From the NCBI RefSeq assembly GCF_019649055.1, contig NW_026570288.1, positions 496,001 to 560,000 of the forward strand: DNA of 64,000 nucleotides, in the 5' to 3' direction. The notes below the pieces were generated by a model, which made no database searches, had not been told where the DNA came from, and was given only the letters and a program-made list of their open reading frames with translations. The DNA is from Paramacrobiotus metropolitanus. Lineage: Eukaryota; Tardigrada; Eutardigrada; Parachela; Macrobiotidae. This document shows, in pieces, positions 21,680 through 53,654 of the stretch; positions within the stretch are counted from its first letter, which is position 1, and each line of letters opens with the position of its first letter. Made by a program: the position numbers and the translations under genes.

Positions 21680-21816
21680 CTTCGGCAATTGCGGTGAAAC
21701 TGACTTTGACCCGGTCCTTGCCGACGTTCTCCACCTTAACGGGGACCAGTCCACTGGGCCCGCGGACTTCCGCCGACAGTTTCCCTGGACAGGCTTCCGA
21801 CGTATCGAAGGTGATC

Positions 21817-22850: not shown

Positions 22851-23231
22851 TTTAGCAGTTAATCAAGAAGGTTTACGAATTACCTTTTGCGAATAAAGCT
22901 ATGAAGAAAGTCCTTGACCGAGCTACTGCCACTATTCAGCGAAGAGAAATGCTAGGAAACGTAGTGACCTTTCTGTTGCACAGAAACTCAGCTGAATATG
23001 TACTACACGGGGGTAATTCCACCTCTCTTGTCAGACCAGTTCCGCCTCAGCCTCCTTTGGGTGAGTGACCGGATTGACTACCACAGAATTCGTGGGAATT
23101 TTTTATTATTTTCACCGAATATCATCCAGAAATTATAGCGACAAAAACCAAATTTTTAGAAAATCTTCGGATTTCATAACTTTGATCACGATTACAGGAA
23201 ACGCGGAGGCGATAGTCGAGACTGTTTTTTA
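22851..23231. other. Unassigned region between gag remnant and DNA transposon
   Basis: No domain seen in any frame. It may be further degraded retrotransposon sequence, but I have no motif to support that. Confidence 0.4.
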
Positions 23232-24855: not shown

Positions 24856-24899
24856 TTTTTTAAAACCCAAAAGAAAATGGCTATTCCCACCACCCTGGC

Positions 24900-26478
24900 A
24901 CCTCCTTCGGCTATTCTGACCACTTTCCCCCCGTGATCAGAGGAGATATCCGACCTTAATTGTGCCACGAAGTTCTTAGGCTTATCTGCATAGCACTTAT
25001 TCACATCGGTAAATATTAGCGGCTTTACCTTTACGTTTCTAATGGTAATGGATAAATGTAATGATGCTCAAATTTCTAAAAAAAGATTTCTGTAACAACC
25101 AGTATTTTATGAATAATATACGTAAGAGGTGGGAATGGGAGTAAGAGATAGTGGGAACATATGTAAATAAAGGGTGGTGGTGCCGAAAGGAGATGTAAAA
25201 AGGTTTATTTGATAATAAAGACTTGACAGTTGACACGACGGGTCTGCGCTTCCGTGTTACATCTGAAATTGTGGGAGCAGTAATTCAGTTCTGTTGTGCG
25301 TTTTAACACGGAAGTCCATGTTGTGAAAGGTCATTTTTATTTACACATGCGGTTTCAGTTAGTAAGAAAGAAGCTCTTCAGAAGCTTATTAGAAAAGAAA
25401 ATCTCAAAACTGTTAAAATTACAGCGTCCGTAATTGGGATAGCCCAGAGGTGCTTATTCCTCTTCCTACAACTTTGTATAACAAGACTGCTTTTTACATA
25501 GTATTTTATCACATTTCTGTTTGCAGTGTCATTTCGTTCTAAGGTAAGTGTTTTAATGTCGAGAGTAAAGCAGTCTTTTGGCTTTTAGCGTCGCTTTCTA
25601 ATAACGCAGAGCTGGTTTTTTGATGTAGTAAATCAGGAAAAATTCTAGCACACCATTGGATCGTAAATACGAAAATACGTACAGTACGTAACGGTTTGCA
25701 CGCCATTTCATTGGAAGAAGCGCCAGTAGACGTAACACTGAGTTCAAACCATAGAAACTATAATATCACTGTTATGCCTACGAGCCGAAGTACGTATGCA
25801 TCATACAACTATGTATTTTGAGTTGTTGGTTAAAATACTCACAAGTCAGTATTACTGATAAAAACTTGATCAATGTCGCTACGCGACTGCAGCGCCCCAA
25901 TGCCACGTTGCAGGAACAAAGTGAATTTCTTATTACAACCAGTATTGGGTTCGGTTTCGACCGCCTGGCGTAACTGAATTCAAAAAGAGCCACTGGTGGC
26001 AGATTAAGTAAAATAATTTCTACAAAGAAATGGTAAGAAGAAAGTAGCGGCAATATCCAAAAAGTGGTGCGGGGGCAGTCAAAGGCGGTGTTCGTTCTAG
26101 TTTTATAAAAGGGAGGTGACAATAGCCGAAAGGGGGCGCAGGGGGTGACAATAGTCACACCCAATTTCAATTACTTACCTATTTCATCACGATCACGGTT
26201 TCCTTTCGAAAACTTTTAAAATTTTGATAACTATGTGATAACGTACGTTGGTTTTGGTTTTATGCAGCGGCCCCAAGGCGATCGCCTCTCGCCTTTTTCC
26301 GCAACAGTATCGACTAAGCGACTTATTGTAATCGCAGTCTAGTACCTATTCCTTTCTACCTTTGCATGTGCCAGTGATTCGCGTTTTCTTTTGGACTCCG
26401 CTTAACTTCCATGTTTTCGCATACCTGATAAACTTTAACCTTTTTTATGTTATCACTTCTTGTGGTTACACATATTGC
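24900..26478. other. Unique spacer between the two 15-kb copies
   Basis: No recognisable gene; ORFs are short and lack known domains. It is the only part of the first 44 kb, besides the D1-D2 block and the first LINE, that is not repeated in the window. It directly precedes copy 2 at 26479. Confidence 0.5.
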
Positions 26479-26820
26479 CTCGTTGCAAGGACAAAACATT
26501 TCCATTATTACAAGACGCACAAAAGAACATCAGAAAACAAAAAAAAAACACCCAAAATGCCAAGGAACAGAAGAAAATATCCCTAAAAAGGATAAGGGAC
26601 CTAGAAACCAGACCGAAAACAAGGGATCGGTAAAAAATAATTCCTGGAAAACGTCGGGCAATAAAATCGTCGAAAAGCGAAATGCCGGTCAGTACTCTGT
26701 CGGTCAGCAGTTTGTGTTATTCACATGTTAGCAGGTAGCAGTATACCGGTCAGCAAATTGTTTGGAAGGAAAACGGAGGTTAAAGATTTGACGTGCTCCC
26801 CAAGTTTACAAGGTCATTCT

Positions 26821-29800
26821 TCAGTACTGATGGAGAAGATTTTTTTCAGAGCGGCTGTCCAAGTACCACATCAATGCAAACAAAGTTAAGTTTCGCAGGG
26901 AATGGCATGGTACCTGAGCTAACGGGTCATCCATTTTGCCAGTGAATCGTGCATCTCCTGCTTGCCACTGCGTCAGTAATTGTATCAAGATCCTTTTTGG
27001 TACAGGATGAGCGTCTAGTTGGCTTTGCAACGTTCGAATGCCTTCGTCGGTCATCGGTTGACAATTATTTTCCAGAAACTGCCTTGCAGATTGCATTTGC
27101 TCGTTTTGATTTGTGTTGATGACACACTTGCTTAAAAAAATGTTAGTACGTAAGTCCAGATATTGCGGTGTCCAAAACCTGCGGTAATAAGGCCCAACAA
27201 AGCTGGAGCGGGAAGAGTGCCAGCCACTACCCGATAGTATAATTGTTTTGTAAATCGGTTAATATTTTCGTCAAAAGCTAAAGCCAGCTGGTCATTCCCA
27301 TATTTCTGCAGATTAAATTCCATCCGCAAACCAGCGGGAGCGGTTGTTAAAATGATGCGCCAGAATTTACACACTTTACGACAATTCAGTTCGTCCTGAA
27401 ATTCCAGAAAGGAAAATATCCGATGGAAGACTTCCACTGGAATACAAGTATTTATACACGGTTGATGCTGATACAGTGTTGTGGATATGGTAGCCTAATA
27501 AAAATAAAAGATAAAACGATCATTTCATCCGATCGATTTTTTACTGAAGTATGGTAGGACACTGGGCATATACAGCGCTGCCGGGCCAAGCAGGGCCAAG
27601 CTGCGACACCAATCAGAGCTGCTTGTAGGAAGTCGAACTGTTGGCCAGCAAACTCTCGGTCAGCAGGTTTATTGATCAGCAATATATCAGTCATTAAACT
27701 GTCGGGAAGCAAAATGAAGGTCATGGGTCAGGTCAAGCAAAATGGACATGCTACGGGCAGAGACGGGTATACATAAGCCCCTTAAAAATGACCGCCACCC
27801 CATCTCCTTAATCACTCCCTGACCCTTGCTGATATAAATAAAGATAAAAAGATTTGTTGCTAATGAACCCGGCAGTGACCTGACATGTGAGTTACCCGAG
27901 GAAAGCTTTGAAAACAACCGAAAGGGCATAGAAAATACGTCCATTTCATTTTACGCAACTATGTACTGCGTCCTAACTTGGCCCGGCAGGGCTATAGTCT
28001 GTAGCGCAGGCCATTTATGATTTAGTAAACAAGTACTATCAGTTTTTGTAGTATGCGCGCATTTCTACATATCCGATTCTACCTCGTAAATACCCGAAAT
28101 GCCCGATTCCGATAGTATTTTGATTACTAAAATGTGACTTCTTACCAGAAAGGATTTGAAAGCAATGGGCTTGTCGCGTTCTCTTTCTAAATACCTCTTC
28201 CCATTACGCAGTTCATAGGTTGTTGTCCGTTTAGCCATTATCCGAAATACTTCGACCTTATAAAACAAAATTTAAAGCGTCTGCAGTGTGCATCGGCATC
28301 GTATTTTAAAGCTAACGTCAGAATTATATAGCACGTGCGACGTGAAATTTGGCCGACCAATGTTTCGTGCCGCAATGGGTGTACTGATTCAAATACAATG
28401 GGTGGATGCTTCTGCGATCTCGTTTTTGATTTTTGCGTTACTTACCGTAGTACAAATGACTTATTGTGCTTGAATTGTTACAGACTATAGCTGCCCATAA
28501 TTGTGGCAACTTATCTTGAACGTGTGTCTACAATCTCATGCAGACTACGCCTGATTGTTGTAGGCGTTAAGCCCATTAAACAAACAATCAAACCAAAGTT
28601 ACCAAACCACGTTTACCCTGCCTTGCGTTTACCCAGCGTAGCTGTACCTTAGTACAGCTACGTTTTTTGGTAGATAGGTATACTTCATGGTTCAAGCTGT
28701 TCAGCAAACTGGTCACCGTTTATTATATCGACAGCACCGTAGTACCATAGAGGCTGGTTACGGATAGAACCGAACATGGAAGCTGAACATGGTGCATGCG
28801 GTTTGATCACTGTTTATGCATTGTTATTTGCGGTTCTTATAAGTTTCTTAGGCTTGTTAGCTTAATTAAGGGATTTGGCCCGGTACATACCACCAAATTC
28901 GTGCACATTCACGGGAGCTTTTCGCTGTCGCGCATTCCCAAATGCTGTTTTGCATTGCTTTATGACATTGTTTAGCCAGATGATTTGTGTACATGGGCGT
29001 AAAAACCGTTTGTGCACGTAACAGGTTCGTGAGTTATGGCTGCAAGAAAATATTCCAAAATTTTTAAATGCATCGAGGTGTACCAAAAGTTACGTTATAA
29101 ACCGATCTTTCAGTTTTGCACGCTGCAGCGGTGAAATTATATCTCGATTGCATCCAGGCGTGTTTTGCCAGCTTCCTCCTTTCCGCTTGCTCGGCTGCAG
29201 CACCAACGTTAGCATAGGTGCGCTCAGTATACGAAGATGTATCAACGCACGTCACATCCACTGCTAGCGGTTTTCCTCGTTCCCACAGTTCGAAAGTTAC
29301 GGCCCATGGAGTGACCGGACTAAACACCTAGTGCACAAGGTCGGGAACGGTATGGCCACTGCTACGAAGCAAAGAAGAAAGTTGGCGAGACGATCTTTGC
29401 TTGGAAACTTAATAAATTGTGGACATTTTTTGTTGATTCTGTTTCTTCTGATTTGTTCGATATTCGTACTATTGGTGCTTTTAAGCAAGCTTTGAACCGT
29501 GTCGATTTTGTTTAAGGAATCTTTTCTGTCTATCTGCACTCGTACTTTTCGAATTTGCTATTTGGCCAGGTTTAAAACCCCAGCTAGAATGTCACCCTAG
29601 CCGGAAATGGGCTACCTGCTCCACGATGAATAATAATAAAATAATAATAATACAGGCCAGAAACGGGCGAAAGAGTTTTTTAGACAGTGGTTATCTATCC
29701 AAATGCAACGGGGAAACGCGATATGTGTTATGGGTACAATCCCCGAGCAGGATAGCATTGCAGAAGTGTTTTCGTTATAAATCTTGCCTTTTTAGTACTC

Positions 29801-31287
29801 AGTTTGTACTTACATGACGATACTTATTAAAGACAGATAGGGTAGCCCCATTGTTAAAACAAATTTTGCTCGTAAACGCAAATACAGAAGAATTTTAAGA
29901 TGAATTTAAAAATTTTTAAATTCATTTCAAAATTTGAAAAAAAATTGTGCAGCTCTGGTTCGGTGTAACAACGATCTTTATATTAACATGCATTTACGTA
30001 CCAAATCTGAAGATCGGTTTATAATGAAACTTTTGGTACACCAATCACTACACCTGAATGCATTTAAACGTTTGCTTCCCCACCGTATGACGTGAAATTA
30101 ACGATTATTAGAATTACAATTGACCGCAGAAACATGCTCAGTGAAATCAATATAACGTTATCTATCCAGTAATAGCCACACAATTAAGGCCAGATTTCCA
30201 GCGGTTATTGATTTTGGGGCTTTTAGCTAATTGTAAAAAATTAAGTCTCCTCTATCAGAATATGTCATTATCATTCAAGAAAAAAATTTGCTGAGTTTAA
30301 AAAACAACCGCTGGAATCTCGCCTTAATAGCCACACAACTAAGTCCAGTTTTCAAACCAAATTTGTCATAGAAAGACCACCAAAGAAGTTCAAAATCCAA
30401 GTATTTACATTGTAGTTACCCTACCTGTACGTAGTTTAAGTTATCCTACGTAGCAGGGACGGGCCCGGACGGCAAATTTTAGTTATCCTAGTAATCCTAC
30501 GTAGCAGGGACTGATGCGTTAAGCCATTTTCAATTTTACTCGTGTCTCCACGTTATCATATGTTAAAGTTTTTTACTGGACGGAAAAAACTAAATGCGGA
30601 AAGGGAAATGCATTGATGCGTCTTGCAATTAAGCACATCCCATGGTCCCAACGTCCCATGGTCTTGCATGAACGACCTTTTACGCTATTAATGTACTCTT
30701 ACCAATCCCCAAAAGTTCCACCGACGTGATTCATCCCCTTGTGCAATATAGAGAAGCTTTCTGCTTTCAACCTTAACGAATATTGTGTTGAAACTGTGCC
30801 CATGCTCACGATTCCACCACCAGAAGTCTTGCTTGCTGCGCGCCTTGGCAAGAACTGCAGTTATCCAACTCAGCGGCATACTAAGTCGCTTGTAACTGTT
30901 TAGCTCGAAAGATGGTCGTTCTCCAGAAGGCATGATCCACATGCGTCTTGCCACTTCCTTCACGATTTTGCCTTGTCTTTGAGCCTCGACAACAGCGAAA
31001 GTATGATACGATCCCGCGATAACGGTGGCCGGGTACCAGCGAAATGCCTCGCTGTTTGAGCCCCGCCACAAAATTTGTACCGTGTCGCCCGGGGCGAAAA
31101 GGTAATGAGAAATTCTCCCAAAGCATCGATGAAAAGGGATTAGCTCAGTATGGTGGCCGGGATATCCAAAATCAATGAAACAACCTCTCGCTACGTCCAC
31201 ATCAACTATCAGGCCGTGACGGAATGATCCATCGTCATCCTGTACGTCCACGGCGCCATAACACCATACAAGATCGTTTTCGAACAT
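26821..31287 (-). pseudogene. Tudor-like/F-box protein gene, copy 2, frameshifted
   Basis: Exon 1 31287-30703 (intact, 195 codons), exon 2 28256-28146, exon 3 from 27494. It carries the same 233-bp deletion in exon 3 as copy 1. An extra one-base loss in a T run near 27245 shifts the frame a few codons earlier (after NINRFTK). Exon 1 differs little or not at all from copy 1 at the protein level. It makes no full-length product. Confidence 0.8.
29123..29868. mobile_element. LINE insertion with inverted 5' part (copy 2)
   Basis: Duplicate of 12567-13312, with the same opposed fragments and the same flanking TTTTGCWCG sites. It was carried along by the segmental duplication rather than inserted separately. 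Confidence 0.75.
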
Positions 31288-31776
31288 ATTATTATAGTCC
31301 TCCTTCCTAAGTGGCTATATGCAGTTAATGTTTACTGATGAAGTTAATTCAGGGCACAAGGAAACTGCAGATAGAGCGGCATGTTGCTCATTTAATACTA
31401 TTAACTCAGACTAACCATAAGGCACATAACTCAGCATAAGCAGTAAGCACTACAGTACTAGCTAAAAAGCAAAAGAGCAAAGAAATACAGTAGATAAATT
31501 AATTATTAACGGCGAAGCAGTAAAACTGCAATGGAATGGCTGGTACTTGGTAGGAATGCAATAATCAATACTTCTGTATGTTAGTCTGTTATGTCAGTCA
31601 ACGTAGCTATGTCTTGGTACGTACTAGGCATGTCATCTGGTTGATCGACGGAGGCTGATCTGAACCACGCGGGCGCGCCGCAGCAATCCTTTAGGGAAAG
31701 CATAAAAATTCATGCCGACGTAGCATCTATGAACATGTGTGCGCTTTGGTACTCCCATGTTCTACCAGATGGGCCT

Positions 31777-32032
31777 CAAAGCGCTCAATTTGCCAATAAC
31801 GAAATACGCTGCGTGGGTATCCTGAAGAAACGATTTGGTATCAGTGGGCAGGCATTTGACCTGACGCAGACGGTCACTCTGATTGGAGCCAATGGACCAC
31901 TGATACAAAGTGGGCTGCAGTTGCGTATTACGAAGAAAACCGTGCCAGCAAGAAACTTTTTTTTATTTTTCAGATGCCATCGCACAGCACGATAGAGCGG
32001 ACGTTCCCGGTGCCAAAGTCAGCTTCCCGTGA
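31777..32032 (+). pseudogene. DOMON-like gene fragment D5
   Basis: Duplicate of D3: exon 3 remnant to 31909 and exon 4 at 31974-32032, with the same altered donor (GTGGGC). No 5' exons. Confidence 0.8.
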
Positions 32033-32604
32033 TCTGCCATTCCGGCAAATGGCCTGCATTCCGCTTTTATATGTCTGTCAACAACTTTGCAAATAGCATA
32101 AGGAAAAAGATGCAATTTGTACAATGGTTGTAATACAATGTCAATTACCTAATTGCGCACATTTAAATATTAAATTGTCACGCCTTTTAACTGTTTGTCC
32201 AGCGGTTGAATGGAGCTTTGACGGTGCCTCCCAGCAACTCACAAAATGGCTTTTAACGGAAAGATGACCTTATAGATGCCGATCAAGAAGGGCGTTTTAA
32301 TGCGTTGTTGTCATCATATTAGCACATGTGCACATAGTTTCACTCTTGCATAAAGTTGCCAAAAGGTCATGTACTGAATGCGCTGTTTAAAAACACAAAA
32401 TATACAAAATAATTGTTGTCGCGCTACATGTTTTACCGCGCCATAATAATCGCTCTTTTCTTTGGCGCTTCTTGGCTTCATGATCGTATACGCAGACAAC
32501 TGAACCATTCTAAAACGTCTCATGGTTGTACGTAGCATTAAGTGCCAATGCACTTGCTAACGCAATAATAATGATTTCAGTCAAGCATTTTACAATCTCT
32601 TTAT

Positions 32605-33627
32605 GCAAAACCCACGCTTGCCGGGAACGTTTTTTGTGCTTCCGTTTCCATCAACTGTTTCATAAAGCAGTCATACGTTTTGCCACCTGTTTTGTTAATC
32701 TTGACAGCCAATGCGGCGGCTGCCCAAAACACCGGATGTGGGTCATCTTTGAGCAGCGTTAGTCAAACATGTCAGAACAGCGGCACGGTGTGCCACAGTC
32801 TCCAGGCACAGTGCTGGCAAACGGCTTCATGCGAATTCTTAGCCAGCATCGCCACAGCCAGTGATGCGGTGACGGTTGACCTTCTCGCTGTGGCCAATGG
32901 CGATCAACTGCATTTAAATCTTACCGGCAACCGGTGGATCGGAGGATTCTCCATGGTGCGGTCTTCTTCCCATTTTTCACAAACTGCTTTATTCGAGTTA
33001 TGTGCATAAATGTATTACGTAGATTAAGCAGGAAAAGAGTGGATTTATGGAAGGAACGTTAATTTTTTATGGTAAATTATATGATGATCGAAATCAGGTA
33101 AATTGTTGATCGACAGAGTGGAGGCATGGCTAATTCAGCGGTGGTACGTTGCTTCCATGATGTCAACGACACCGTGCAAGCCAAACTGACGTATAACATC
33201 CCCAACGCCCATCTTAATATTGGATGGCAGACTGTTGATGTAAGAATCGTGCGTCGTTAACGGCACGTATCTGTGCAGTGCAACCCGAGAGTGTTGTTTT
33301 TACCCGCTATAGCCTTGTGTTAGTTTTAGGCTTGCCGTTACTTAATTTGGTAATATAGACGCTTTAGTACATCTTATAGCAAGCACCGCTAAATGTCCAA
33401 TCGGCTTCCTACGTGAACAACGAACTCCACTGCGTCGTCAAGCTGCACAAGAAATTCACCATCCAGCGTCAAGCGTTTGACCTTAGTCAGCCGGTGACTT
33501 TAATTGCCGCCACGGGCCGTTACGAAACAGTAAGCGGTGTTGAATGCTGTCCGTGTTTTGCTGTGGCCACGAATCAGGGACCTTGCAGATACCGTTTCCA
33601 TGCATGATCGGGATCCAGCCATATTGA
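32605..33627 (+). pseudogene. DOMON-like gene D6 (copy of D4), start disrupted
   Basis: Exons end at 32955, then 33117-33239, 33380-33529 and 33589-33627. Relative to D4 a single A is missing from the run after the only usable ATG (32605), which puts that ATG out of frame with the signal peptide. Three bases are missing within the DOMON signature, leaving RWIGGFSM. Both changes sit in short runs or repeats and could be sequencing errors; if corrected, the gene would equal D4. Confidence 0.6.
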
Positions 33628-34615
33628 AACAGAAAACCAAGTTTTAATAAATGCATCCGGAAGCAATTCCACTCGACAGCCAGTTAAAGCACATGACCAC
33701 CCGTCTGCGGCTTTTGGCGTGGACAGTGTCTGCTATCTATCTGCTCCGTGTTTTTGCATTTGCTGTCTGCTTACAAATCTACCCGACCCTGTTTTCGCGC
33801 AGCTTATAATGGTGTGACTGTATCTTGACTATATAAAGACGAAGCGCATACGGAAAAGCCTCTTGTATAAAATAATAGTTATCTAATATTTCTGTACTCT
33901 TGCAATGAATTACACACTTTTCAAAGTATCGCATCACTGTCGATTATGCCATAATATTTTGTCTAACAAGGAAAATCGTAGAACAGTGGAAACCAGACAC
34001 TTCTTCGTGAGTATTATCAATGGTTTGGTTCGGGTCTTAATCGTTATGCAATCGTATAAAGAATATCAGTTAAAATACAACTTTTACTCCAGCGGATGGT
34101 ATGCTTTTTATCGGAAAACAGGCTACCAGACACCTGTGTAATTATGAGTTTATATGGTTTTTACGGCATAGGAAGCTTGGCGAAAAAGGTCACCGGATGA
34201 GAAATTGGCAAATTTTACTTGTGATAGAGACGTGTTTAAAAATATACACGAGATGCCGGTTTATGCGTTATCAGCTTTACTGACAATTAGAAATATTTTC
34301 GGGTTTGAACTCTGAACAGCCGGGTACATAGCGCACACCACCGGATAAAAACAAGATTACACCTCCAAACTGCAGGCAAAATCGGGGATTAACTGAATAA
34401 GCAGGAACTTTGCGGAATAATAATTCTAGTCTCTGAACCACAAATCAAGCCAGAGCTCAACAAAAAGATAATAACAGGGAGAAGGGGGCACACATCACAG
34501 TCTATATATAACACACCATCGCGGGGGACAAAAGATCCCTTTGAAAAGCATGGCGCGCGCGTCACAAAACAACATAAAATCTCTCTAGAATCTCTTGCAT
34601 TCTCTTGCATTCGTC

Positions 34616-37600
34616 TCAGATATCGGCGGATCCACGACGCCACTGCGAATAGGAGGTAGCCGCCGGCGGCGGCGGGGAGGCGACGTAGACGCCGCTGGCG
34701 TTGCCGTACGTGTACTCCGGCATGGGGCCGCCGCCGTGCACGTAGCCGGCCGAGGACTAGAGGGACGGGGATTTCGCCGGTGCGCAGGAAACGGTTGAGC
34801 TCCTCCTCCGTGTCGAAGATCCAGATGTTGAAGGGCGAGCCGGGCACGTGCTCGCCGGACCATTTCACTTCGATGCGGTAGTCGCCGGGCTCGGTGGGGT
34901 CGTACTTGCACAGGATGGTGCGGTCCTTCTGACTCTCGCGCTGCATCTCCACGCGGAAGGCGCCTACAAGACCAAAAAATAAATTATAATTTTTATGGCT
35001 TTATTTACAAGGTAAAAAAATATTATAAATTGTATTCTTATTTTAATATATTAAATAGAAATTTTACAATTATTTTTAAATTAAAAATTATTTTATTTTA
35101 TAATTACTTTTAGATTATTCTTTTAAATTATACTCAATTACCATTCAACCAATCAATCATTATTGTAATTTAAACAGTTTTTCGCTTAAAAATAACTTTT
35201 TTATTTTCAAATCATTTTTTGTCCTTTCTTATACCTAGTTTTATTGTTTTTGGGAATTTTTATACTATTTTTAGGAAATTTATAACTTACTTCTGATAAG
35301 TCATCCGCAGAGTTGGAAGCCAGTAAAACTGATTGTAAAACGTACCTTTGGGCCCGCGCACGCGCACGGTTAATTGCCCAGCACCGGCACCTTTGGTCTC
35401 GCACATGAACCGGCTCTGATAACTGGCCAGCACATCGTGATTCACCCCGGACCGTACACGCGCACCTTGCTGGGATCGGGTGTACCGGCAATTTTAATGG
35501 CAAATGGACTTCCTATAAACAGAAACACAGAAAACATTGTAATAATCAATGCGATGATGGAGCTAACCGTTGACAGCGTCCTGGGCACGTGTTCTCCGTT
35601 GTACTTGATGGTGAGCAAATGTTGACCGGCTTCGGCTGGTTTGATTCGCAGTGTGTACGTTCCGTCCCGGTGGTCATACAGCTCACAGAACGCCTCTTTA
35701 TGCGGACCCATACAGTGTACGGACAGTTCGCCTGCAGAATTATTACATAATTAACATCCACTAGACTTCATTATCTGTGCTTATAATGGTTTGGGAACAC
35801 ACTGCCGAATCTTGAATGTGTAAAGGACGCGTATAGAATAATCGGTTGTGCCATATTATTTTGTCTAATAAGGAAAATCGTAAAACAGTGCAAACTAGAC
35901 AATTCTTCGGTGGCAATTTTAATGGTTTGGTTACGGCTATATTAAATCGTTATAAAACATACAAAAAATAAATGAAGAAATTAAAATAAACTTTTTTTAC
36001 ATCAGGCGGATGGTTTGCTTTTGTTTGACGTACCATTAAAGCAGCTACTCATATACAGCATATTAAGCTGTAATACTGCCGCATTTATTTATGTGTACAG
36101 TGTATTACAACGATTATTATATTTTATCACATAGTATGTACGTTTGTATATTGTAGCAAAACTTTTCATAAGAAAAATCTACAATACGGCCTTCCGCTTC
36201 AGCAGCAAAAAAATATGTTTCTTAAGCGCCACGCGGTACACTGCTCTTCACTTGTTGTTACAACGATTACAATACGCAAAGGGCTACCAATTTCCACTGT
36301 TCTGCGATCAACCTCTCTCGGCACAATATTGTGGCACAATTCATACTGCCACCACGATAATGATAACTGACACCCCCCATAATGATAATTTAACACCCCC
36401 CATAATGATAATTTTTATACGTGGCATAATTTTTAAATCGCATATTATTATTCTGCCGGGAATGTAACACGAGGATACTTTTCGGACTTACCTGGTCCGG
36501 CGCGTCGCGTATCGATCATACTCTTGATATCCTTGCCGATCATCCCGCTCTTGATATCCCCACTGACCACCACCTTACTGGCATCCCCGGCGGACGCCAC
36601 CGTCAGTTTGTACGGGCACCCTTTCACCGTGTCCCCGCTCCATTTGACGTTGAGGACGTAGGAGCCGCTGTGCTGCGCCGTGTACGTCGCTTTGTAGACG
36701 TTACTGCCCAGATGCTGCAGCGTCACCGGGATGTCGGCTTTGATGCCGCTGATGTGGACTTCCGGTTCGCCGGGTCCGGCCTCCTAGCCGTCGATGATGA
36801 ACTCGGCTTCCTCGCGCACTTTGGCCTCCGTCAGACCGCGATCGCGCAGCCGCACCCGGCCGGCGTCGATGGGGATGAGGGCCGGCTCGGCCCAGCCGGG
36901 GAACGGGGAGTGCGGGATGGGCTGCTCCGACCACCACACGTGGATATCGTGATGACCTATAGTGTGGCAGTTTTACTTTCAAACGCACGTATTTTAATTC
37001 AGAAGCGAATTTTATTATTTTCTGCGTATTGACATGCTATACGGAAGATGCACTACATCTACCGTACTAGATGACCAACCACACACAGTCGGTAGAGTGG
37101 GAATCTCTGTTCTGAACGGTGATCTGCTCCTAACTCCTACGCTCACAACCAGTATCTGGATGATGTTCATCCAGATTCAAATGTGACTTCCTGCAGGTAC
37201 ACACTAATGCTTTCGCCACAAGAAGGTAACTCAGGATCTCCTAACCTTTAATCATAATCTGAAGACTGCACACACTGCATACAGACTCTCCAGCCAACAC
37301 CATCAAATCTGCACACACCGCATACAGATCTGCCAAGACCAAACTCACACTCAAACTCTCAAGTCAGACTCCGACAAGACTAATCACACAAACAGAATCG
37401 CTGATGGAATTAGCGATCAAAAGCTTTAGATAAGAACAGGTAAATCGTACGTGAACTACGACGTACGTACAAAGTATGGGCATACTACGCCTACTGCGTC
37501 AGTATTTTAGTTTCTTTTTCGATTCCAGGATGCCTGATACTGATTATCACCTGACTAGAAAACCGAAATAATTCTTTTTGAACGCACAAACGTAGTACAA

Positions 37601-38275
37601 TGGCTGACTGTGGAAAACCCCAGTTCCAAATCGATAATAAAACTTTGCTATCTGTCCTCGCTTAATTTGCAAACTCTAAGAAACCATCAAACTTTATTTT
37701 AAAAATAAATGTTTTTCTAATAAAGTTTTATATTTCTAAATTTTTGGAAAATTTTTAAATTTTTGCTGTTACTACCGGCTAGAATTGTTAAATGCTCCGT
37801 CAACGCTGTCCAAAGCGTAGAACATGGAAAAACCCAATAAAATTAAGTACTCGAGCTCTATCATGGAGCTATCCGAACATTAAGTCCAATTTCTACTGTT
37901 TTTGGGACCCAAAAACAGTAGCTTTTCACAGCAAATCTTTGGGCCAGCAGATACATAACAAGAGTAAAATTGGTGATATTTCTGAACCATGTTGCTTTTC
38001 AAAGCTTTTCATATCGGATAAACAAGCTACATATTGCAGTGGGTGCAATTTATGCCAGACTATACAGATCTGCAATCTGTAGTAGTTCATACCGCAGTAA
38101 TTTATATTACGGTTAAAATAGCTGTTTAAATATTTGTTCATCTACTGTATTAATTAATTTTGTCGCTGTTTTAAATTGTCGCGTTGTGCTTACCTTCTGA
38201 AACTGACGGGTCCACTGGGCCCGCGGACTTCCGCCGACAGTTTCCCTGGACAGGCTTCCGACGTATCGAAGGTGA
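34616..38275 (-). pseudogene. Filamin 3' end, copy F3
   Basis: Duplicate of F2: exon E 34963-34616, D 35512-35346, C from 35731, B 36956-36492, remnant of A about 38275-38200. It shares the TAG nonsense codon in exon B (near 36785) and the lost exon C donor. Additional one-base losses in G and A runs shift exons E and D (the tail after LRTGEIP is out of frame), and exon A lacks its central part. The shared lesions predate the duplication; the extra indels are either new or assembly errors. Confidence 0.8.
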
Positions 38276-38595
38276 TCGTAGAATATTTAATTTATATGAA
38301 ACATAATCCTACCTATTTGTTCCGATCGCTTTCGAAACGCTGGGCCCGTGAGGACCGTCGGCGATCACAATCATCAAAGAGCAGGGCAAAAAAGAATGCA
38401 CACCGGAGAAACAAGCTCGCACGAATTTCTGCGGCAGCGTTTGTCCATGGAAATTCAACGAGGAAATGCGGCGTCAGTGCTGGGGACGATGGAAGGGCGG
38501 ATAAGCCGAACGAAATTTTTCTGTTAATATCTTAGCGTGTTTTTTTTTGAATTTGTGTATTGCGAGTTTGATTTGACCAATAAAGTTACAGTATC
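38276..38595 (+). mobile_element. LINE 3' end (copy 2)
   Basis: Duplicate of 21817-22135, with the same early stop after AFETLGP and the same fusion to filamin exon A. Confidence 0.75.
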
Positions 38596-39310
38596 CTGAT
38601 CGGAGTGTTCCCTAAGGTAATGTGCAAAGCTTCAGCTTTCAAAGGTGTGATGATGTTACTGTGCACTGTGACTTGCTTTCGACTTGCACTAAACATCGTG
38701 GTGTTCGCGTTGACCACAGATGGCACAACAGTGTTGGCTACCATATCCACAGAACCGACCCGCGGCTGTGCAGTGACCTTTGTTCCATAGGTGGCACACT
38801 TCGTCATCTTTGGCTCCCCGCTACCTGCGGGAGGCTGAGAACCAACCTGACCTACCCACGATGAGCGACGATTGCTGGTACTACTTTGCAATAGCGGACA
38901 TTCAGGCCTGATGTGTCCGAATTTCCAGCAGTTATAACACTGGACCTCAGTATTTCTGCCTACACCGCCTGTGTGATGACCAGCGTCATGCCCAAGTGGT
39001 TGCATCAAATACTTGGTATAAGCGTCGTCATTTCTGCGCTACCACTGCATGACATCATTTGGATTTCGTCAAACGACTAAACGGAACTGTCGGTCATAAT
39101 CAAGCCACTGGTCAACAGCAGTTCCTTTCCCCGCTTATATCTGCGCGACGTGATCTATGTAGTTCATCATAGGTAGGTCCACCTCCTGGTATATGGCACA
39201 CCGATATATTTTTAGCACGGCAAACGCCCTCATCCATGGACTGAAGTCTCGAATCTGCGCACTTTTGCCAAATGCATTCTTAGTGTCGACTACGCTTGAG
39301 GGGGACATTT
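38596..39310 (-). pseudogene. Gag-like remnant with zinc knuckle (copy 2)
   Basis: Duplicate of 22136-22850. Here the stretch from YLMQPLGHDAG through the CCHC knuckle to the stop is open for 140 codons, while the upstream part has the same stops as copy 1. Confidence 0.6.
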
Positions 39311-39691
39311 GTTTAGCAGTTAATCAAGAAGGTTTACGAATTACCTTTTGCGAATAAAGCTATGAAGAAAGTCCTTGACCGAGCTACTGCCACTATTCAG
39401 CGAAGAGAAATGCTAGGAAACGTAGTGACCTTTCTGTTGCACAGAAACTCAGCTGAATATGTACTACACGGGGGTAATTCCACCTCTCTTGTCAGACCAG
39501 TTCCGCCTCAGCCTCCTTTGGGTGAGTGACCGGATTGACTACCACAGAATTCGTGGGAATTTTTTATTATTTTCACCGAATATCATCCAGAAATTATAGC
39601 GACAAAAACCAAATTTTTAGAAAATCTTCGGATTTCATAACTTTGATCACGATTACAGGAAACGCGGAGGCGATAGTCGAGACTGTTTTTT

Positions 39692-41312
39692 AAACGTTAC
39701 CGACCAAGTCGTCGCATAAAATCTCGTCGCGGGACACTTTTCGGCCATTTTAGGTCGCGGGGACAGTTCATTTAAGGACTTGTCGTCGCTAGACTTTTCG
39801 TCTTGAGACATCTGGCAATCAGACATGTGGTTACACGGACAACTCGAGTTCAGACATTTCGTCGTCAGGACAATTGGATTCGCAATTTTTTAATTGAAAA
39901 TTTTAATTTTAGCTTGAATATGCCGCCGTTTCACTCAAAATTTATCTCATTTAGACAAGCCCAGCATATGGAATAACTCCTTATTTTTAAAAATTTCGAA
40001 AACATTATATTATTTCGATTATTAGTACTAGTAGATATTGAGCAAACTTACCCAGTTATTCAATTAGGTACTTGCGTGTAAAACATGCAGTAAAATCTAA
40101 AAACTGCTCTGTGTTATACAGAAACACTATTACAAATACTGTATGTTAAGATTCAATATTTTTGTGGTTTCTGCAGTTAAAATATTAGAAAATTGTGCAT
40201 TATGGCAAACCATCAACAATTATATTATAATAATTGTGTGTATTTGAAGTTTGTGCACGATTAACAGAGAGGAAAGCAAGAGAGACTTGATTGCCATTAT
40301 TAATTTAGGTTGGAACATTTAGCAAGGAACAAGCTTCTCTGCACACTGTACAGTCTATCATTATTCATACGTGTGCACAGCAGACATCGTTAAACGCAGA
40401 ATCACTTTCTCACTTCAAGACAGTGATAAAGGGTGTCCCAGTTTCCATCACGCAGTACATTTTGACACTACAGAAACTGCATGAATAAAATAGTTTCTGG
40501 GCTACACTGACACAGATCGCACGTAAATGTCAGTGATTTTCAATTGTCTCCGTGTTTGAAGGATGACAATACTTTTCCCCTTCTGCCTTCTGGTTGTAAT
40601 GCCAGAGAAGTCATGATCTGTTCCTTTAAAAATCAGTTTTTCAGTGGCAAAACCAAAGTTTCAGAATCAGCCGCTCGTAAACAAATATTTCCTCAATTTT
40701 TCAGCTAAAGGTTACAGTTCCAGGTTGACCGCCTTGCCAACATCGTCAACGACTATAACAACCAGGAAAAGGTCGGATTCTTGCGAAACACTGCGGCAGA
40801 CCTGGAATTGAGTGTGTGAGCGGTCAGTTACGCATATTTTCATTAGCATAAGCAAGATGTTTTTGTTTGCTAAATCTTGAATGTGTCGAACTGTGGTGTG
40901 GTTAATTAAACTTTTGCATGCCTTAGTTTTTGTAATTTTGAGCAATAACGATCGCGGTTGGTTAAACTCCTTCCACGATTTTTATTAACTGTATCTACTT
41001 CGGTTTTGTTTTATATTTTATTAAGACTTTCTTCTTGGCGGTTCTGATTTGTCATTAACTTCGGCTTGAAAATAACAAAATTTCACACAACGAAAAGTCC
41101 ATCAACGAAAAGTCCGTGCGCCGAAATGTCCTAGCCTGGCAACGAGTAGTTTGCTACCAATTGTCGCGTTAACGAAACATCCGAAAACGAAATGTCCGTA
41201 AAACGGAACGTCCACATACGAGTTGTCCCACGACCAGAAGTCCTCTAAACGAAGTGTCGCCGACGAAATGTCCCGCGACGAACTGTCTCGCGACGACTTG
41301 TCACGTAGCCGT
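39692..41312. mobile_element. DNA transposon with repeat-array ends (copy 2)
   Basis: Duplicate of 23232-24855, with left array near 39705-39890 and inverted right array near 41088-41307. Its right flank leads into the junction at 41335-41460. Confidence 0.5.
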
Positions 41313-41334
41313 TTTTTAAAACCCAAAAGAAAAT

Positions 41335-41460
41335 GGCTATTCCCACCACCCTGGCACGTCTATCTTATGGCTATTCCCACCACCCTAGCATATCTTATAT
41401 GTATATGAAGCAAGCCGCGTCCAAATCGACGCGCTTGCTTCATATACATATAAGATATGC
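41335..41460. repeat. Fold-back duplication junction
   Basis: The 15-kb copy ends here. GGCTATTCCCACCACCCT occurs at about 41335 and again at about 41369. A 28-bp arm at 41388-41415 is then followed, after a 17-bp loop, by its exact reverse complement at 41433-41460. The right arm and loop belong to the sequence also found at 6621-6668; the left arm has no counterpart there. This is what templated, snap-back repair of a break would leave. Confidence 0.8.
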
Positions 41461-41905
41461 TGCATGGAGGTTATAAAACTAAATCCTGATCTTTTCACAA
41501 TATTATACTAGCCATTTTCGGATACCGTGTTCGATGTATGATGTTCGCAACGTAACGTTTTGTGCGGACATTACTGACACACGCTTCCATACGAACAGTA
41601 CGAATACAAACAGCACATACAAACAGTACTTCCGATGTGTGTTCGTACTGTTTTTCCATGGCGTCGGTTGCGATACTGAATGCCTTCAACTTGCTAGTTG
41701 CTACATATATATCTTTTTCCAGTCGGTACATGGAAAGATTTGGATCTCGTTTCTGGAGGTTAAAAAATTAAACTAAATTAAAAATTAAATTTTAAAAAAT
41801 TAAATGGTGGTATGCGGAGTCAAAAGTGGTGCGCAAAAGGTGGTATGAAAGGTGGTACTAGGAGCCAACGGTGGTATAAAGGTGGTATGCGGAGCCTTCA
41901 CCATA
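41413..41905. mobile_element. MITE lacking its left end
   Basis: Corresponds to 6621-7113. The right TIR (ending GGTATGCGGAGCCTTCACC) and the flanking ATAATATTT are present; the left TIR was lost at the junction, so this copy cannot move by itself. Confidence 0.85.
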
Positions 41906-42085
41906 ATATTTTGCATAACAAGGGAAATCGTAGAACAGTGGAAACCAGAAGCTTCTTTGCGAGATATTCTTAATGGTTTGCTTAGGGTATTAATCTTTAC
42001 AAAATCGTACAAGGAATCAATTAAAATAAACAGTTTTACTTCAAGCGGATGGTCTGCTTTTTAACGGAAAACAGGCACCTGCCTG

Positions 42086-42470
42086 TCAGATATGACACAG
42101 AAGCAGAGAGCAAAATGGGAGCAATATCCTCCTTTATTGTGTAACAATAAAGCAACCAACAAAAACAACACAGAAAACCCGATGTGGTAAAGCTGTGGTG
42201 AAAGTGGCTGCCAGCGAGCTCGGTGGAAATCGTGATAATCCCGCGGCATGCAGCAGCTGAATCACAGCTGGTACCGCAAAGCATGGAATCGCTCGTAAGC
42301 GCTGGGCCACACCTCCAAAGTGCATAGCGAACGCTGATTGGTCAGCGTAGACAAAGTATACGCTGAGTTATCAGCGTATATGAGCGGCACGGATGGCGTG
42401 GCCATACGCGTGCGGGCGACAGAGCAAGCCACAAGAGGTGTCTACCGCCTCGAGTGAGCGGTCTCTGACA
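42086..42470 (-). mobile_element. SINE-like repeat, second copy
   Basis: Duplicate of 7295-7682, flanked by the same TGCCTG sites, with several one-base indels in homopolymers. Carried by the segmental duplication. Confidence 0.6.
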
Positions 42471-42961
42471 TGCCTGATTATGAATATGGTTTTACGGCAT
42501 ACGAAGCTTGGCGAAAAAGGTCATCCGGATGAGAAATTAGCAAACTGTACTTGTGTTCGAGTTTATAATGGAGATACCTGGTATTTTTAAAAATATACAC
42601 GTGATACCGGTTTACACGTTATCAGTTACTAACTGTTAGAAATATTTTCGGGTCTGAACTCAGAACAGCCGGGTACAGCGCGCACACCACCGGATAAAAA
42701 CAAGATTACAACTCCAAACTGCAGGCGAAAATCGGGGATTAACTCAATTTAACTGGATAAGCAGGAACTTTGCGAAATAATAATTCTAAACTTTGAACCA
42801 CAAATCAAGCCAGCGCTCAACAAAAAGATAATAACAGGGAGAAGGGGCACACACCACAGTCTATAACACACCGCCGACGGGGGAAGAAAAGATCCATTTG
42901 AAAAGCATGGCGCGCGTCACAAAACAACATAAAATCTCTGCAATCTCTTTCATTCGTCTCA

Positions 42962-44696
42962 GATATCGGCGGATCCACGACGCCACTGCGAATAGGAGGT
43001 AGCCGCCGGCGGAGGCGGGAGGCGACGTAGATATATAATTATTATGTAATACGTAATTCTGCAGGCGAACTGTCCGTACACTGTATGGGTCCGCATAAAG
43101 AGGCGTTCTGTGAGCTGTATGACCACCGGGACGGAACGTACACACTGCGAATCAAACCAGCCGAAGCCGGTCAACATTTGCTCACCATCAATACAACGGA
43201 GAACACGTGCCCGGTACGCTGTAAACGACGAATTCCGTCGTCTGACTTATGTATATTGCGAATTGTTGTGATAATTAACTGTGGCTAACTGCAAGAAGTC
43301 CGTTTGCCATTAAAATCGCCGGTACACCCGATCCCAGCAAGGTGCGCGTGTACGGCCCGGGTGTAAGTCACGGTGTGCAGGCCAGTTATCATTTCGGACG
43401 TACCTGGTCCAGCGCGGCGCGTATCGATCATACTCTTGATATCCTTGCCGATCATTCCGCTCTTGATATCTCCACTGACCACCACCTTACTGGCATCCCC
43501 GGCGGACGCCACCGTCAGTTTGTACGGGCACCCTTTGACCGTGTCCCCGCTCCATTTGACGTTGAGAACGTAGGAGCTGCTGTGCTGCGCCGTGTACGTC
43601 GCCTTGTACACGCTGCTGCCCAGATGCTGCAGGGTTACCGGGATGTCGGCTTTGATGCCGCTGATGTGGACTTCCGGCTCGCCGGGTCCGGCCTCCGAGC
43701 CGTCGATGATGAACTCGGCTTCCTCGCGCACTTTGGCCTCGGTCAGGCCGCGACCGCGCAACCGCACGCGGCCGGCGTCGATGGGGATGAGGGCCGGTTC
43801 GGCCCAGCCCGGGAACGGAGAGTGCGGGATGGGCTGCTCCGACCACCACACGTGGATATCGTGATGACCTGTAGCATGACAATGGTACTTCACAAAAATT
43901 CACGTATTTTAATTTAAATGTAGATTTTGTTATTTTCCCCGTATTGTATTTTCTTTGTGAGTTCCAGTACCTAATGATATTATCACGTGACTACAGAGCA
44001 AAAATAAGTACTTTGCGATACAAATGTAGTATAACGGCTAATTGTGGCTAACCCCATTCCCAACTGTCTATTCTCGCTTAATATGTAAAGCGCAAGAAAC
44101 AATCAAACGGTATAATTTAATTTTTTTCTTAAAGCTATTACTACCGGCTAGAATTGCTAAATATTCAGTCAACGCTGTCCCAAGCATGGAACAGGCAAAG
44201 ACACAATAAAGATCCGTACTCGAGCTCCGTTATGGATTTATCCGAACATTTAAGTCAAATGTCTATCCTAAATTAAAGCAGTAAATTCTTACAGCAAATC
44301 TTTGGGCCAGTAGGTAACAGTAAAAACGCTAATATTTCTGAACTATTTGATTTACAATGAATCTTATAAATATTTAATAAACGAGCTAACTAATGCAATT
44401 GATGCGGCGTACGTCAGACTATAGTAATTTATACTGCAATAATTCATAATACCGCAGTTAAAATAGCCGTTAAAATAATTGCTCATTTACTAATCATATC
44501 AACTGATTTTGTTAATTTCGTTCTTTTTCAATACTTTTAGTCATTGTCGTTGTGCTTACCTTCGGCAATCGCGGTGAAGCTGACTTTGACCCGGTCCTTG
44601 CCCACGTTCTCCACCTTGACGGGGATCAGTCCACTGGGTCCGCGGACTTCCGCCGACAGTTTCCCGCGATTGGCTTCCGACGTTTCGAACGTGATA
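42962..44696 (-). pseudogene. Filamin 3' end, rearranged copy F4
   Basis: Duplicate of F1: exon A about 44696-44560, exon B 43868-43404, inverted block 43032-43391, terminal codons at 42962-43029. In exon B a Gly codon has become Ser (AQHSSSYV in place of AQHSGSYV), one of the few substitutions. Not expected to make filamin. Confidence 0.8.
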
Positions 44697-45037
44697 TTTT
44701 TCTCGTTGCAAGGACAATAAATTTTCATTATTACAAGACGCACAAGAGAACATCAGAAAACAAAAAAACACCCAAAATGCCAAGAAACCGAAGAAAATAT
44801 TCCTAAAAAGGATAAGAAACCAAGAAACCAGACCGAAAACAATGGATCGGTAAAACAACAATTCCTGGAAAAGGTCGGGCAATAAAACAGTCGAAAACCG
44901 AAATGCCGGTCAGTAATCTCTCGGTCAGCAGGTTGTGTTATTTACATGCTAGCAGGTAGCAGTATCGGTCAGCAAATTGTTTGGAAGGAAAACGGTGGTC
45001 AAAGATTTTACGTGCTCCCCAAGTTCAAGGTCATTCT

Positions 45038-48000: not shown

Positions 48001-51000
48001 GCTGCCTCTGTGATAATATTAACGCGCATTTACGAGTACGTACAAAATCTGAAGATCGGTTTATAATGACACTTCTGGTACTCCAGTCACTACACCTGAA
48101 TGCATTTAAACGTCTTGGAATTTTCTTGCAGCCAGAACTCCCCAACCGGATGTTGCGCAAACGGACTTACGCCTACATTATAAAAAAATCATTTGGCTAA
48201 AATATATCATAAACTATAAAGGAATGCAAAACAGTGTTTGGGAGGGCTCGGCAGAGAAAGTTCCACGTCGATTTACAGAGGGTGTTCACGCCAAGTTGAG
48301 CAAGCAGTGAAAATAATTCTCAATAAGTTTTCGTTCGCTTTTTGATATCCGCTCGCCACTACGTTGCATACTCTAAAGTGTTCGTAACAGACCTGTGCAG
48401 TTATTTTTAACTATTTAACTTAACGCGAGTTATTTTCGAGTTATCGAGTTATAGCGTAACTCTGAAGCGTAACTCGCTTTCCCAAAAACTTACTCTAACG
48501 TAACTCTCCTGAAAATTCTTTGTATTGTCAATGGTAGCGTAACTCGCAGTATAACTCAAAACTTGATTTTCTTGCATCAGTAGCGTAACTCGCACGCTCT
48601 CTGTAACTCTTAACTCTAACTCTGGGTCAATTTTCCATAACTGCACAGGTCTGGTTCGTAATAATTTGGTGCCAGCTAGAAACTGCGAACGAGCAACACG
48701 GTTCAAAAAAACAGAATTTCCAACGAGGTACCGAGTTTTTCTCTTGTAACAATTTGTAAAAATATTTCAAAAATTATAGAACGTTTTCTAACGGAAACCA
48801 TTGTAATCTTTTATGCAACGACATGCAGCGTTTTGAACTCGTATGGACCGGGAAGTTGGAAAACTAGGTTGGCAAAGAAACAGCTGGAAGACCAGAACGT
48901 ACACCCTTCAGACCTCAGCCTCAGTGACAGCTGGAAGGAAAACTTTGACTATCCCTTAACAGAATCTATGCGATATTTTACGAAGACATCGAAGCGCAAG
49001 CGCTTAAAAAGATCTTGATTCGTGTCAATCGCGTGGTACCTGAAGATAAGACTCGCAAACGGCTCTCGCGAGTCCCTCGATTCTTCGAGTTTTTTCAACA
49101 GTCAAAATCTGGTACACATCATATTTATCGAAAAAACACAGATGTATCTTGCTTGTAAAAACGCTCAGTGAAAATTATGTCACGTCTTTAACTATTCCAA
49201 AAATTTTGAATCTGGGCTGAAGTGTTGGAAGGCAAAGAAAAAAAAACTGTCATCTCTGTTCAAAAAAATTTCGTGCCGTGGACCTACTGCGATACGCTTC
49301 GTTTTTCTTTTCACTGAAACAATCAACGTTGTGTATGTGAGGCGAGAAGCGGCTCACGTAAAGCGACAAAATCTTTCAAAGGATTTCAACGTATTGCGCC
49401 GTGGTGCAGTGGTACTGCCTACGCGGATCTAACGACGTAGCCGGGGTTCGATTCCCCTATCGGCGCCTTTTTCAGCCGTTTCTCGGTTTCCCTCGGATTG
49501 CGCCCTGCTTAGATGGTAGCAGATCGTGGTTCGATCACGGACCTATGGTATGAGACTGGTGTGCTAACCTCGAACGGGAGGAACAGAGCAAAAAAGAATA
49601 AAACGATAAAATGAATAGAGGATGCGGTGAGTCGGAGCCGCCGCTTAAAGGATCGCTTAGTCTCGCTACGAGGACGTAGCGAAAGCTGCAAAGGGGGTGT
49701 GAGGCGAGAAGCGGCTCACGTAAAGCGACAAAATCTTTCAAAGGATTTCAACGTATTGCGCCGTGGTGCAGTGGTACTGCCTACGCGGATCTAACGACGT
49801 AGCCGGGGTTCGATTCCCCTATCGGCGCCTTTTTCAGCCGTTTCTCGGTTTCCCTCGGATTGCGCCCTGCTTAGATGTACATAAACAATCTGATGCAGCC
49901 ACTGGTTCATAAAGTCATCCCTAGGCTGCGTTCAGGGAAAGTAAGGAAGATGACAGTTCTCTCGGACATCCTTACAGTCCTTACTGTTCGCACAGCCGAA
50001 AAACCTGACCAGCGACTCGAACCACACTGAATCGAATTTAACTTGAAAGCCTTGAGACTTAGCTATATAGCCTATATTGCAGTTTTCACAACCAGCGATT
50101 TCGAAGTATGTATATATAATTTTTAAGCATTTTTTATATTTAGTTGGTGCGTTATCGTTTCGCGGTTTGTTTACTGTTCCTCGCAGACCCTGTTATACTT
50201 ATAAAATTTGTGTGTCTCACAAAACAGCTTCTTCTGTGGAAAAATTTATTGTTGTTGTAGATAGAAAGGCTTTCAGATATCGTTTTTGTTTATGTAACAG
50301 TAAAGCTGAGGAAAGTTAAGTAAATTTATGCAAAAATGACTCAACGTAACCCTCTGTACACAAAACTGGTGCTATGTACCGGGCAAATCCCTTATAACTT
50401 ATAAGCTCTAGTTTTAGCTCATGTTTTCTTAGGTTTCCTATTATTTTTTTATCTAATGTTTTTATCTTACGTTTTCTTACTTTCTTTATGTTATTCTTTG
50501 GTACTCTCGTTTTCTGTGATTTTCTTACTTTGTTAGGTGATCTACGTAGTTAAACTAACGAAGGTATAAATATTATTGGTATCAACAAACAGATTTTGGC
50601 TTCAACAGCTCACAATCTGTTATAGCAGAGTGCGAACTGCTTTACCCTTGGTGAGCTTCGGTATAGAATGCCTTGTTAAGTTTACTAAGACATATTTCGG
50701 CGATAATGAATTTTACTCACTTGGAACATGTTTAAATGCATTCAAAGGTGCTTCCTGGCACTAAAATTTTATGATAAGGGCGGTTCGCTTCCCCACCCTA
50801 TGACGTGAAATCAACGATTACTAGTATTAGAATTACAATTGACCGCAGAAACATGCTCAGTGAAATCAATATAACGTTGTTTATCCAGTAATAGCCACAC
50901 AATTAAGGCCATATGTAGTTTCCGTACTTCGAGGAAATCGAAATGAAAAAAAAATTAAGGCCAGATTTCCAGCGGTTATTAATTTTGGGGCTTTTAGCTA

Positions 51001-52088: not shown

Positions 52089-53035
52089 ATTATTATAGTC
52101 CTCCTTCCTAAGTGGCTATATGCAGTTAATGTTTACTGATGAAGTTAATTCAGGGCACAAGGAAACTGCAGATAGAGCGGCATGTTGCTCATTTAATACT
52201 ATTAACTCAGACTAACCATAAGGCACATAACTCAGCATAAGCAGTAAGCACTACAGTACTAGCTAAAAAGCAAAAGAGCAAAGAAATACAGTACATAAAT
52301 TAATTATTAACGGCGAAGCAGTAAAACATCCAATGGAATGGCTGGTACTTGGTAGGAATAACGTATGCATTACATTACATTATAATCAATACTTCTGTAT
52401 GTTAGTCTGTTATGTCAGTCAGTGTAGCTATGTCTTGGTACACTAGCTATGTCTTGGTACGTACTAGGCATGTCAATAATCTGGTCGATCGTCGGAGGCT
52501 GATCTGAACCACGCGGGCGCGCTGCAGCAATCCTTTAGGGAAAGCATGAAAATTCATGCACGTAACATCTATGAGCATGTGTGCGCTTTGGTACTCTCAT
52601 GTTCTGCCGGCCTACACAGTTGGTCGGAATGGAATATGGAATCGGAATATAATAGTCGGAACGGAATACAAATATTCGGAATTAAATTTCCGGAATAGGA
52701 ATCGGAATACTAAATTTTTAACGGAACGGAATATATTAATTTAATCGGAACGGAATCATGTTTTCTCGGAACGGAATTAAAATATATTGATCCATAAAAT
52801 TTAATTGTTATTTAAAAGTGTCTATAGCAGTATCTGTAATTACACACTAGCCGTGTGAAAAAGTAGGGTACTCGTACTTGTACTTTTATAAAATATAACG
52901 TACTCTGCCATATGCAGGCACCGCATTACCATGTTTACGTAATAAACCGCTGTCTGAAACATTCCCTTCGAGATTGACTCACAGTCACTTCTCTCTCTTT
53001 CCTATCGCCGTTTGATACACACTGCGTAAGTCTTA

Positions 53036-53097
53036 CCAAAACTGTACTCAAGGGGTTAGCACTAGTGCTAACCCTAACCCCTTGAGTACAGTTTTGG
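53036..53097. repeat. 24-bp-arm palindrome
   Basis: Arm CCAAAACTGTACTCAAGGGG plus TTAG, a 14-bp loop, then the exact reverse complement. The centre (GGTTAGCACTAGTGCTAACC) is itself palindromic, so a longer cruciform is possible. It lies in the 5' part of the Mutator-like element. Confidence 0.75.
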
Positions 53098-53654
53098 TCT
53101 TACACGCCGATTTATTACCCAAAAGCGAAAACATCTTTTGTTTTAAAACAATAACAACTGAACACCGCCTCGGCTTCTTTTAACTCACAGTATTCACGCT
53201 AGCGATGAGAACAAATTAGCAGCTGATTGCGAATAGATGAAAGCTTAATCAAACTGGGGAAAGGCCAGAAGACGGCAAAACGTCTGGAGATGAATCTTCC
53301 TAACAGCTTAACCAAACTACGAAAATGATTGAGGATCACACAAACAGCAGTCTGCAGAATAATTTTCTTAACAAAAATCACGCTGGCGCTGAATAAAGTT
53401 TCGATATATGCGCTACATTGCGTTTACTTATCTCTTGCATCTGTTCTTGCAAGACATCCTACTGAAAAGTTGGTGTATCTGATACAGACAGCATAATCTG
53501 TGTTATTGGTGTAAAAAGCGGATTATTCTAATTATACTTGCATTATCTACGATTACTGGGATCCATGTCCGGCATGAGCACCTGCCGCCGATACGCCAAC
53601 GACATGTAAGTGAAGTATTATATGATCGTTTCACAGGCTAAACTAACACCCTGT
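53098..53654. other. 5' region of the Mutator-like element
   Basis: No recognisable coding exon. It could hold the promoter and an untranslated or first coding exon of the transposase gene, since the first confident exon at 54376 starts with an acceptor. Confidence 0.4.

Follow-up and report, generated by a model that had tools for sequence, protein, structure and literature searches.

Scars of polymerase theta (Pol theta) stem-loop extension have a characteristic make-up, in which an inverted templated insert adjoins the end that served as its template, the opposite end is copied directly, priming takes 2-4 bp and a terminal mismatch is tolerated (PMC11292364, PMC5068794). For purified human Pol theta, two terminal pairs are enough to start stem-loop extension; the enzyme also extends some mismatches and can then join ends (PMC11292364). 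Snap-back inserts are a minor class among C. elegans Pol theta scars (PMC5068794), and the case for stem-loop extension has so far rested mostly on in vitro work and on screens with reporters or mutants. A separate body of work describes duplications mediated by circles. In a set of human segmental duplications, in cattle colour sidedness and in region B of wine yeast, an order A-B/C-D becomes B-A/D-C, the original ends are joined inside the derivative and the breakpoints lie in interspersed repeats (PMC7450558, PMC7188851, PMC3053389). The wine-yeast case is a 17-kb segment that spread via circular intermediates (PMC3053389), and resolved human circle closures show only 0-2 bp of microhomology or 1-nt insertions, with non-homologous re-insertion (PMC7450558). 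Pol theta-dependent tandem duplications, finally, place the second copy head to tail with the first and carry an insertion where the two meet (PMC7368036).

The tardigrade locus described here has something of each. Its scar shares the inverted insert, directly copied opposite end, short priming and tolerated mismatch of stem-loop scars, and its filler templates lie no more than tens of bp from the joined ends, as in Pol theta scars; unlike the usual snap-back scars, it has a filler of 55 nt made in at least two, perhaps three, rounds. With the circle-mediated duplications it shares the permuted order, the joining of the original ends inside the derivative and breakpoints in interspersed repeats, whereas the 55-nt closure filler and an insertion that looks homologous, 1.6 kb from the source, set it apart from the human circle cases. 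It also has the head-to-tail copy and junctional insertion of Pol theta-dependent tandem duplications, from which it differs in its permuted order, if the assembly is right. The components are already known; what is new is a well-resolved example, legible to an unusual degree. If the order holds, end positions, self-priming, copying, closure and recombination site can be traced step by step, and break repair is tied to gene-family growth by a Pol theta-like scar that was inherited in a gene array of a tardigrade.

A fold-back scar with exact limits

All coordinates refer to the + strand of the window, the whole 64-kb stretch of DNA that was analysed. Homology between copy 2 and copy 1 stops exactly at 41357, equivalent to 24901, after 349 identical bases, and homology to the block that starts at 6621 begins exactly at 41413, equivalent to 6621, with 625 identical bases following. 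These limits bear out the first-pass annotation, which had placed a switch from copy 2 to a 6621-like block here. The 55 bp of filler between them read GTCTATCTT + ATGGCTATTCCCACCACCCT + AGCATATCTTATATGTATATGAAGCA. The same annotation had described a repeated 18-bp stretch and a 28-bp arm that is the exact reverse complement of adjacent sequence. Both are present and the arm is perfect, but their lengths needed correction: the repeat, ATGGCTATTCCCACCACCCT, is 20 bp long (41333-41352 and 41367-41386), and the inverted arms measure 29 bp (41387-41415 and 41433-41461, around a 17-nt loop), the native bases AGC being added to the 26-nt inverted filler to give this total. The arms at 41387-41461 form the longest tight palindrome of the window, and no inverted arm of at least 14 bp occurred in any of five Markov-1 shuffled control sequences. 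The complete junction has a single occurrence in the assembly (169.8 Mb, 533 contigs), and we regard the scar as almost certainly real.

The stretch 41001-41310 is a degenerate run of units of about 12-14 bp (ACGAAATGTCC-like), stretches of which match many places in the genome.

Both joined ends lie inside transposons

The scar joins the outer end of a family A element to the interior of a family B element. Family A has the termini GGAAATGGCTATTC (left) and GGGTGTGGCTATT (right) and family B the terminus GGTGAAGGCTCCG; both families have terminal inverted repeats with 9-bp target-site duplications at other genomic sites and are non-autonomous DNA transposons. The A element of copy 1 (1290 bp, 24873-26162) has both terminal motifs, and the joined position, 24901, lies 29 bp within the element; where copy 2 ends, its left end alone is left, truncated to 41329-41357 and closing the 349-bp exact match that ends at 24901/41357. 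The other joined position, 6621, falls inside an intact B element of 670 bp (6441-7110) with terminal inverted repeats and the 9-bp target-site duplication ATAATATTT on both sides. Its counterpart at the scar (41413-41902) lacks the 5' part, matches exactly from 6621 and has the same right end and flank as at 7110. Starting at 6621 is the native stem-loop of element B, CGCGTC-CAAATC-GACGCG (6621-6643), the self-priming hairpin of the mechanism proposed below.

Past 24901, the A element of copy 1 continues natively as CTCCTTCGGCTATTC, like other genomic A copies. To the left of 6621, element B has the native flank CCGAATGC, running into AGCCGCG, which also occurs in the B copies L019 and L021 and, in variant forms, in L020 and L026. 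Since other genomic copies of both families show the native sequence at 24901 and 6621, both states are ancestral and the scar is derived.

Several simpler origins for the features of the scar were rejected. The 20-bp repeat is not a native tandem structure of element A, in which the native second unit differs (CTTYGGCTATTCTCACC), sits 30 bp inside and is retained in copy 1; the second 20-nt copy of the scar reproduces the outer unit exactly and includes the outer AT, which makes it a fresh copy. Nor is the palindrome a feature of element B, being missing from other genomic B copies. Excision or insertion of an A or B element was discarded in turn, the breakpoints lying inside both elements and not at termini with a 9-bp duplication.

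The A element of copy 1 (24873-26162) lacks a 9-bp target-site duplication (AACCCAAAA / AATTTCAAT), which five of its relatives have. The terminal repeats of the two families hold tandem motifs, ACCACCTTTGGCTCCTA and ACCACCTTTTGGCTATT; the common ACCACCTTT core suggests that A and B belong to one superfamily, and the 9-bp duplications suggest that the elements are Mutator-like or Merlin-like.

Most of the filler can be predicted from the two ends

Exact templates for 46 of the 55 filler bases are found at the two joined ends. The 26-nt piece (41387-41412) is an inverted copy of 41436-41461, as expected of a snap-back product: if the bottom-strand 3' end at 6621 folds back, with GCT/AGC as the terminal pairing, the predicted extension, TGCTTCATATACATATAAGATATGCT, equals the observed filler letter for letter. 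The register used is the most probable one for pairing of the terminal T (P 0.43; next, 0.32), and the minimum-energy fold of this end uses the next register, not the one used. Such ends are rare: a terminally paired hairpin of 8 bp or longer turned up in only 9 of 4000 random ends taken from the window. The 20-nt piece (41367-41386) is a second copy of 41333-41352, with the A end as its template. If a TGCT-3' end pairs with the other end at GGCA, its last base forming a G.T pair, the copy should read AGGGTGGTGGGAATAGCCAT, and it does; the terminal G.T pair accounts for the single G-to-A difference, in AGCA, between the scar (CCCTAGCA) and its template (CCCTGGCA). Both pieces are thus primed by short terminal pairing, and the first-pass annotation's suggestion of short, repeated template switching is strengthened by templates that predict them base by base.

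The remaining 9 nt, GTCTATCTT (41358-41366; AAGATAGAC on the bottom strand), include TATCTTAT, which matches the arm. With flanking bases the match is 8 nt long and is expected by chance in 5.8% of trials, so the arm is no more than a possible source of this piece. Apart from that uncertainty over the last 9 nt, the whole 55-bp filler reads as the growth of one bottom-strand 3' end.

We propose that the 18.3-kb segment from 6621 to 24901 was either released or copied, leaving two broken ends, each within a non-autonomous DNA transposon. The bottom-strand 3' end at 6621 (..GGACGCGGCT-3'; in longer form, ..GAAGCAAGCGCGTCGATTTGGACGCGGCT-3') would fold on the native stem-loop of element B, its last bases would pair with AGC, and 26 nt of self-templated extension would follow. 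The hairpin would then open, and the new TGCT-3' end would anneal to GGCA near the other end, in the 24898-24901 region, through three Watson-Crick pairs and the terminal G.T, so that 20 nt could be copied from the A end. Released once more, the 3' end would add 9 nt before being sealed to the GGCAC end at 24901. Fully extended stem-loop products of Pol theta resisted reopening in vitro (PMC11292364), so opening of the hairpin would need a helicase or strand displacement.

From the form of the scar we infer that Pol theta-type (alternative) end joining with stem-loop extension made it, and we consider this likely. Replication-based switching accounts for the scar a little less well, since 46 of the 55 bases can be derived by extending one 3' end on the joined ends alone. 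Exons for a Pol theta polymerase domain are present in the genome (C75:661735-663265, PF00476), and a phmmer search with them ranked DNA polymerase theta chains top among PDB matches (E 3e-44). Tardigrades are known for surviving DNA breaks, and POLQ is strongly induced after irradiation in the tardigrade Hypsibius exemplaris (PMC11233135).

The duplication is circularly permuted as assembled

The first-pass annotation had put the scar at the end of a 15-kb duplication. On both counts the locus turned out differently: the duplicated unit is 18.3 kb long, and the scar, as assembled, is the internal closing joint of a permuted duplication. The source segment (6621-24901; 18,281 bp), which contains part of a filamin-repeat gene, the F-box gene Fbox1 and other genes, is nearly identical to 26524-41357 and 41413-44746. 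The inserted block (26524-44746; 18,223 bp) runs 9968-24901, filler, 6621-9967. Identity profiles match 26524-41357 to 9968-24901 and 41413-44746 to 6621-9967, and substitutions are nearly absent: local re-inspection left about four clear ones in 18 kb, together with about 30 small indels and one complex patch. The derivative copy as assembled is therefore a circular permutation with the source ends joined inside. A tandem order is not what the assembly has, the native flank (element A, 24902-26478) following copy 1 and the scar following copy 2.

The 6621-like block (41413-44746) and copy 2 look like products of the same recent event, because both are almost free of substitutions relative to the source. 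Two independent duplications were rejected, both parts having equally near-zero divergence and meeting in one tract. An older age for the 6621 block, as its 98.6% BLAST identity might imply, was also rejected: the profile is near 100% up to 9967 and about 94-96% beyond, which marks the match as a composite.

Both outer borders of the block fall at a switch between F-box paralogues. In a three-way paralogue comparison copy 2 differs from the other two up to 9967, and from 10006 it is copy 3 that differs, the only later exceptions being two 1-bp indels and a five-base, copy-2-only patch (10953-10957). The left border (26524-26564), with Fbox3-type sequence to its left (26479-26523), and the right border (44747-44784), with Fbox3 sequence to its right, thus correspond to one opening point of a circle, the 38-bp identical tract at 9968-10005 in Fbox1. 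This tract is the 18th longest identical tract available; longer ones include 304 and 144 bp.

On the simplest reading, the scar would have closed the 18.3-kb segment into a circle, and one homologous crossover within the 38-bp tract would then have brought this circle into the neighbouring Fbox3 paralogue, giving 9968-24901 / scar / 6621-9967. One circle-chromosome crossover would directly yield both the permuted order and the placing of both borders in one tract. The letters as assembled show directly which ends were joined, what the filler is and what templated it, the permuted order, and the switch tract common to both borders; the circle and its re-entry we see as evenly balanced between true and false. 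The full chain of events, in which a gene-bearing 18-kb circle in the tardigrade germ line was closed by Pol theta-type self-priming on a transposon hairpin and re-entered a neighbouring paralogue by homology, is tentative, its chances falling a little short of even. If true, the closing and re-entry steps are both legible at base level, and transposon hairpins may seed circles and the growth of gene arrays in this genome.

Alternative explanations

The strongest competitor, though in our judgement an unlikely one, is that 6621-24901 was duplicated in plain head-to-tail tandem, Pol theta-type end joining leaving the scar at the junction, and that the assembler then swapped the two segments at the F-box repeat, making the permutation an artefact. 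TMEJ produces tandem duplications in C. elegans (PMC7368036), and the permuted path and a tandem duplication would use the same segments, each equally often, so that a mis-join at the F-box repeat would convert one into the other. If at the left edge of the repeat, such a mis-join could also bring the two switches close to the first identical tract. The assembly was made with Canu and HaploMerger2 from noisy Nanopore reads of about 3000 pooled animals (PMC8277472), and the inserted block is poorly polished. Weighing against this explanation, the F-box paralogues are several per cent apart and their repeat, at about 2.6 kb, is short for long reads; confusion would have been more natural at the identical tracts of 304 and 144 bp; and no haplotype contig without the insertion was found among the assembly contigs.

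In replication-based repair (MMBIR/FoSTeS), one nascent strand would have passed from Fbox3 to Fbox1, from 24901 to 6621 via the hairpin, and from Fbox1 back to Fbox3. Serial switches and templated filler are hallmarks of this process too (PMC8421209), and the same sequence can be expressed as strand jumps. We nevertheless find this route improbable: the copied DNA has few extra substitutions, and the outward and return switches would have fallen in one 38-bp tract by a coincidence of about 2-5% (for two independent length-weighted switches, once the first lies in this particular tract the second joins it there in 2%, and the two share a tract, whichever it is, in 5%). An unequal sister-chromatid crossover at Fbox1/Fbox3, followed by end joining of the duplicated and deleted products at the scar, would reach the identical final order through one crossover and one end joining, but both reciprocal products must then break and join in one nucleus, whereas closure of a circle joins two ends of one fragment; we give it very little weight. 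Least probable of all is a chimeric-read or library-preparation artefact, since, for all that chimeric Nanopore reads occurred in this data set (PMC8277472), concatenated reads leave no two templated fillers obeying base-pairing rules, whole-genome amplification is not described for it (PMC8277472), and the junction must occur in enough reads to enter a 45x assembly.

Consensus errors and other features of the window

Relative to the source copies, the inserted block (26524-44746) has 26 deletions as against 5 insertions, with few substitutions. These roughly 30 small, mostly single-base, indels are probably uncorrected Nanopore error, and the frameshifts of copies 2 and 3 are therefore no sign that these are pseudogenes. 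A complex patch confined to copy 2 (38157-38221; copy 1, 21611-21759), with several deletions and a short insertion, covers part of a filamin exon and its immediate surroundings at a distance of 3.2 kb from the scar. Comparison with filamin0 favours copy 1 as the ancestral state there, and the patch may be either a second repair scar or a consensus error.

The window as a whole holds an array of filamin-repeat and F-box genes with several duplicated blocks. A 180-bp direct repeat of 100% identity occurs at 49336-49515 and 49698-49877, 362 bp apart, and the second tight palindrome of the window, with 25-bp perfect arms and a 14-nt loop, lies at 53035-53098.
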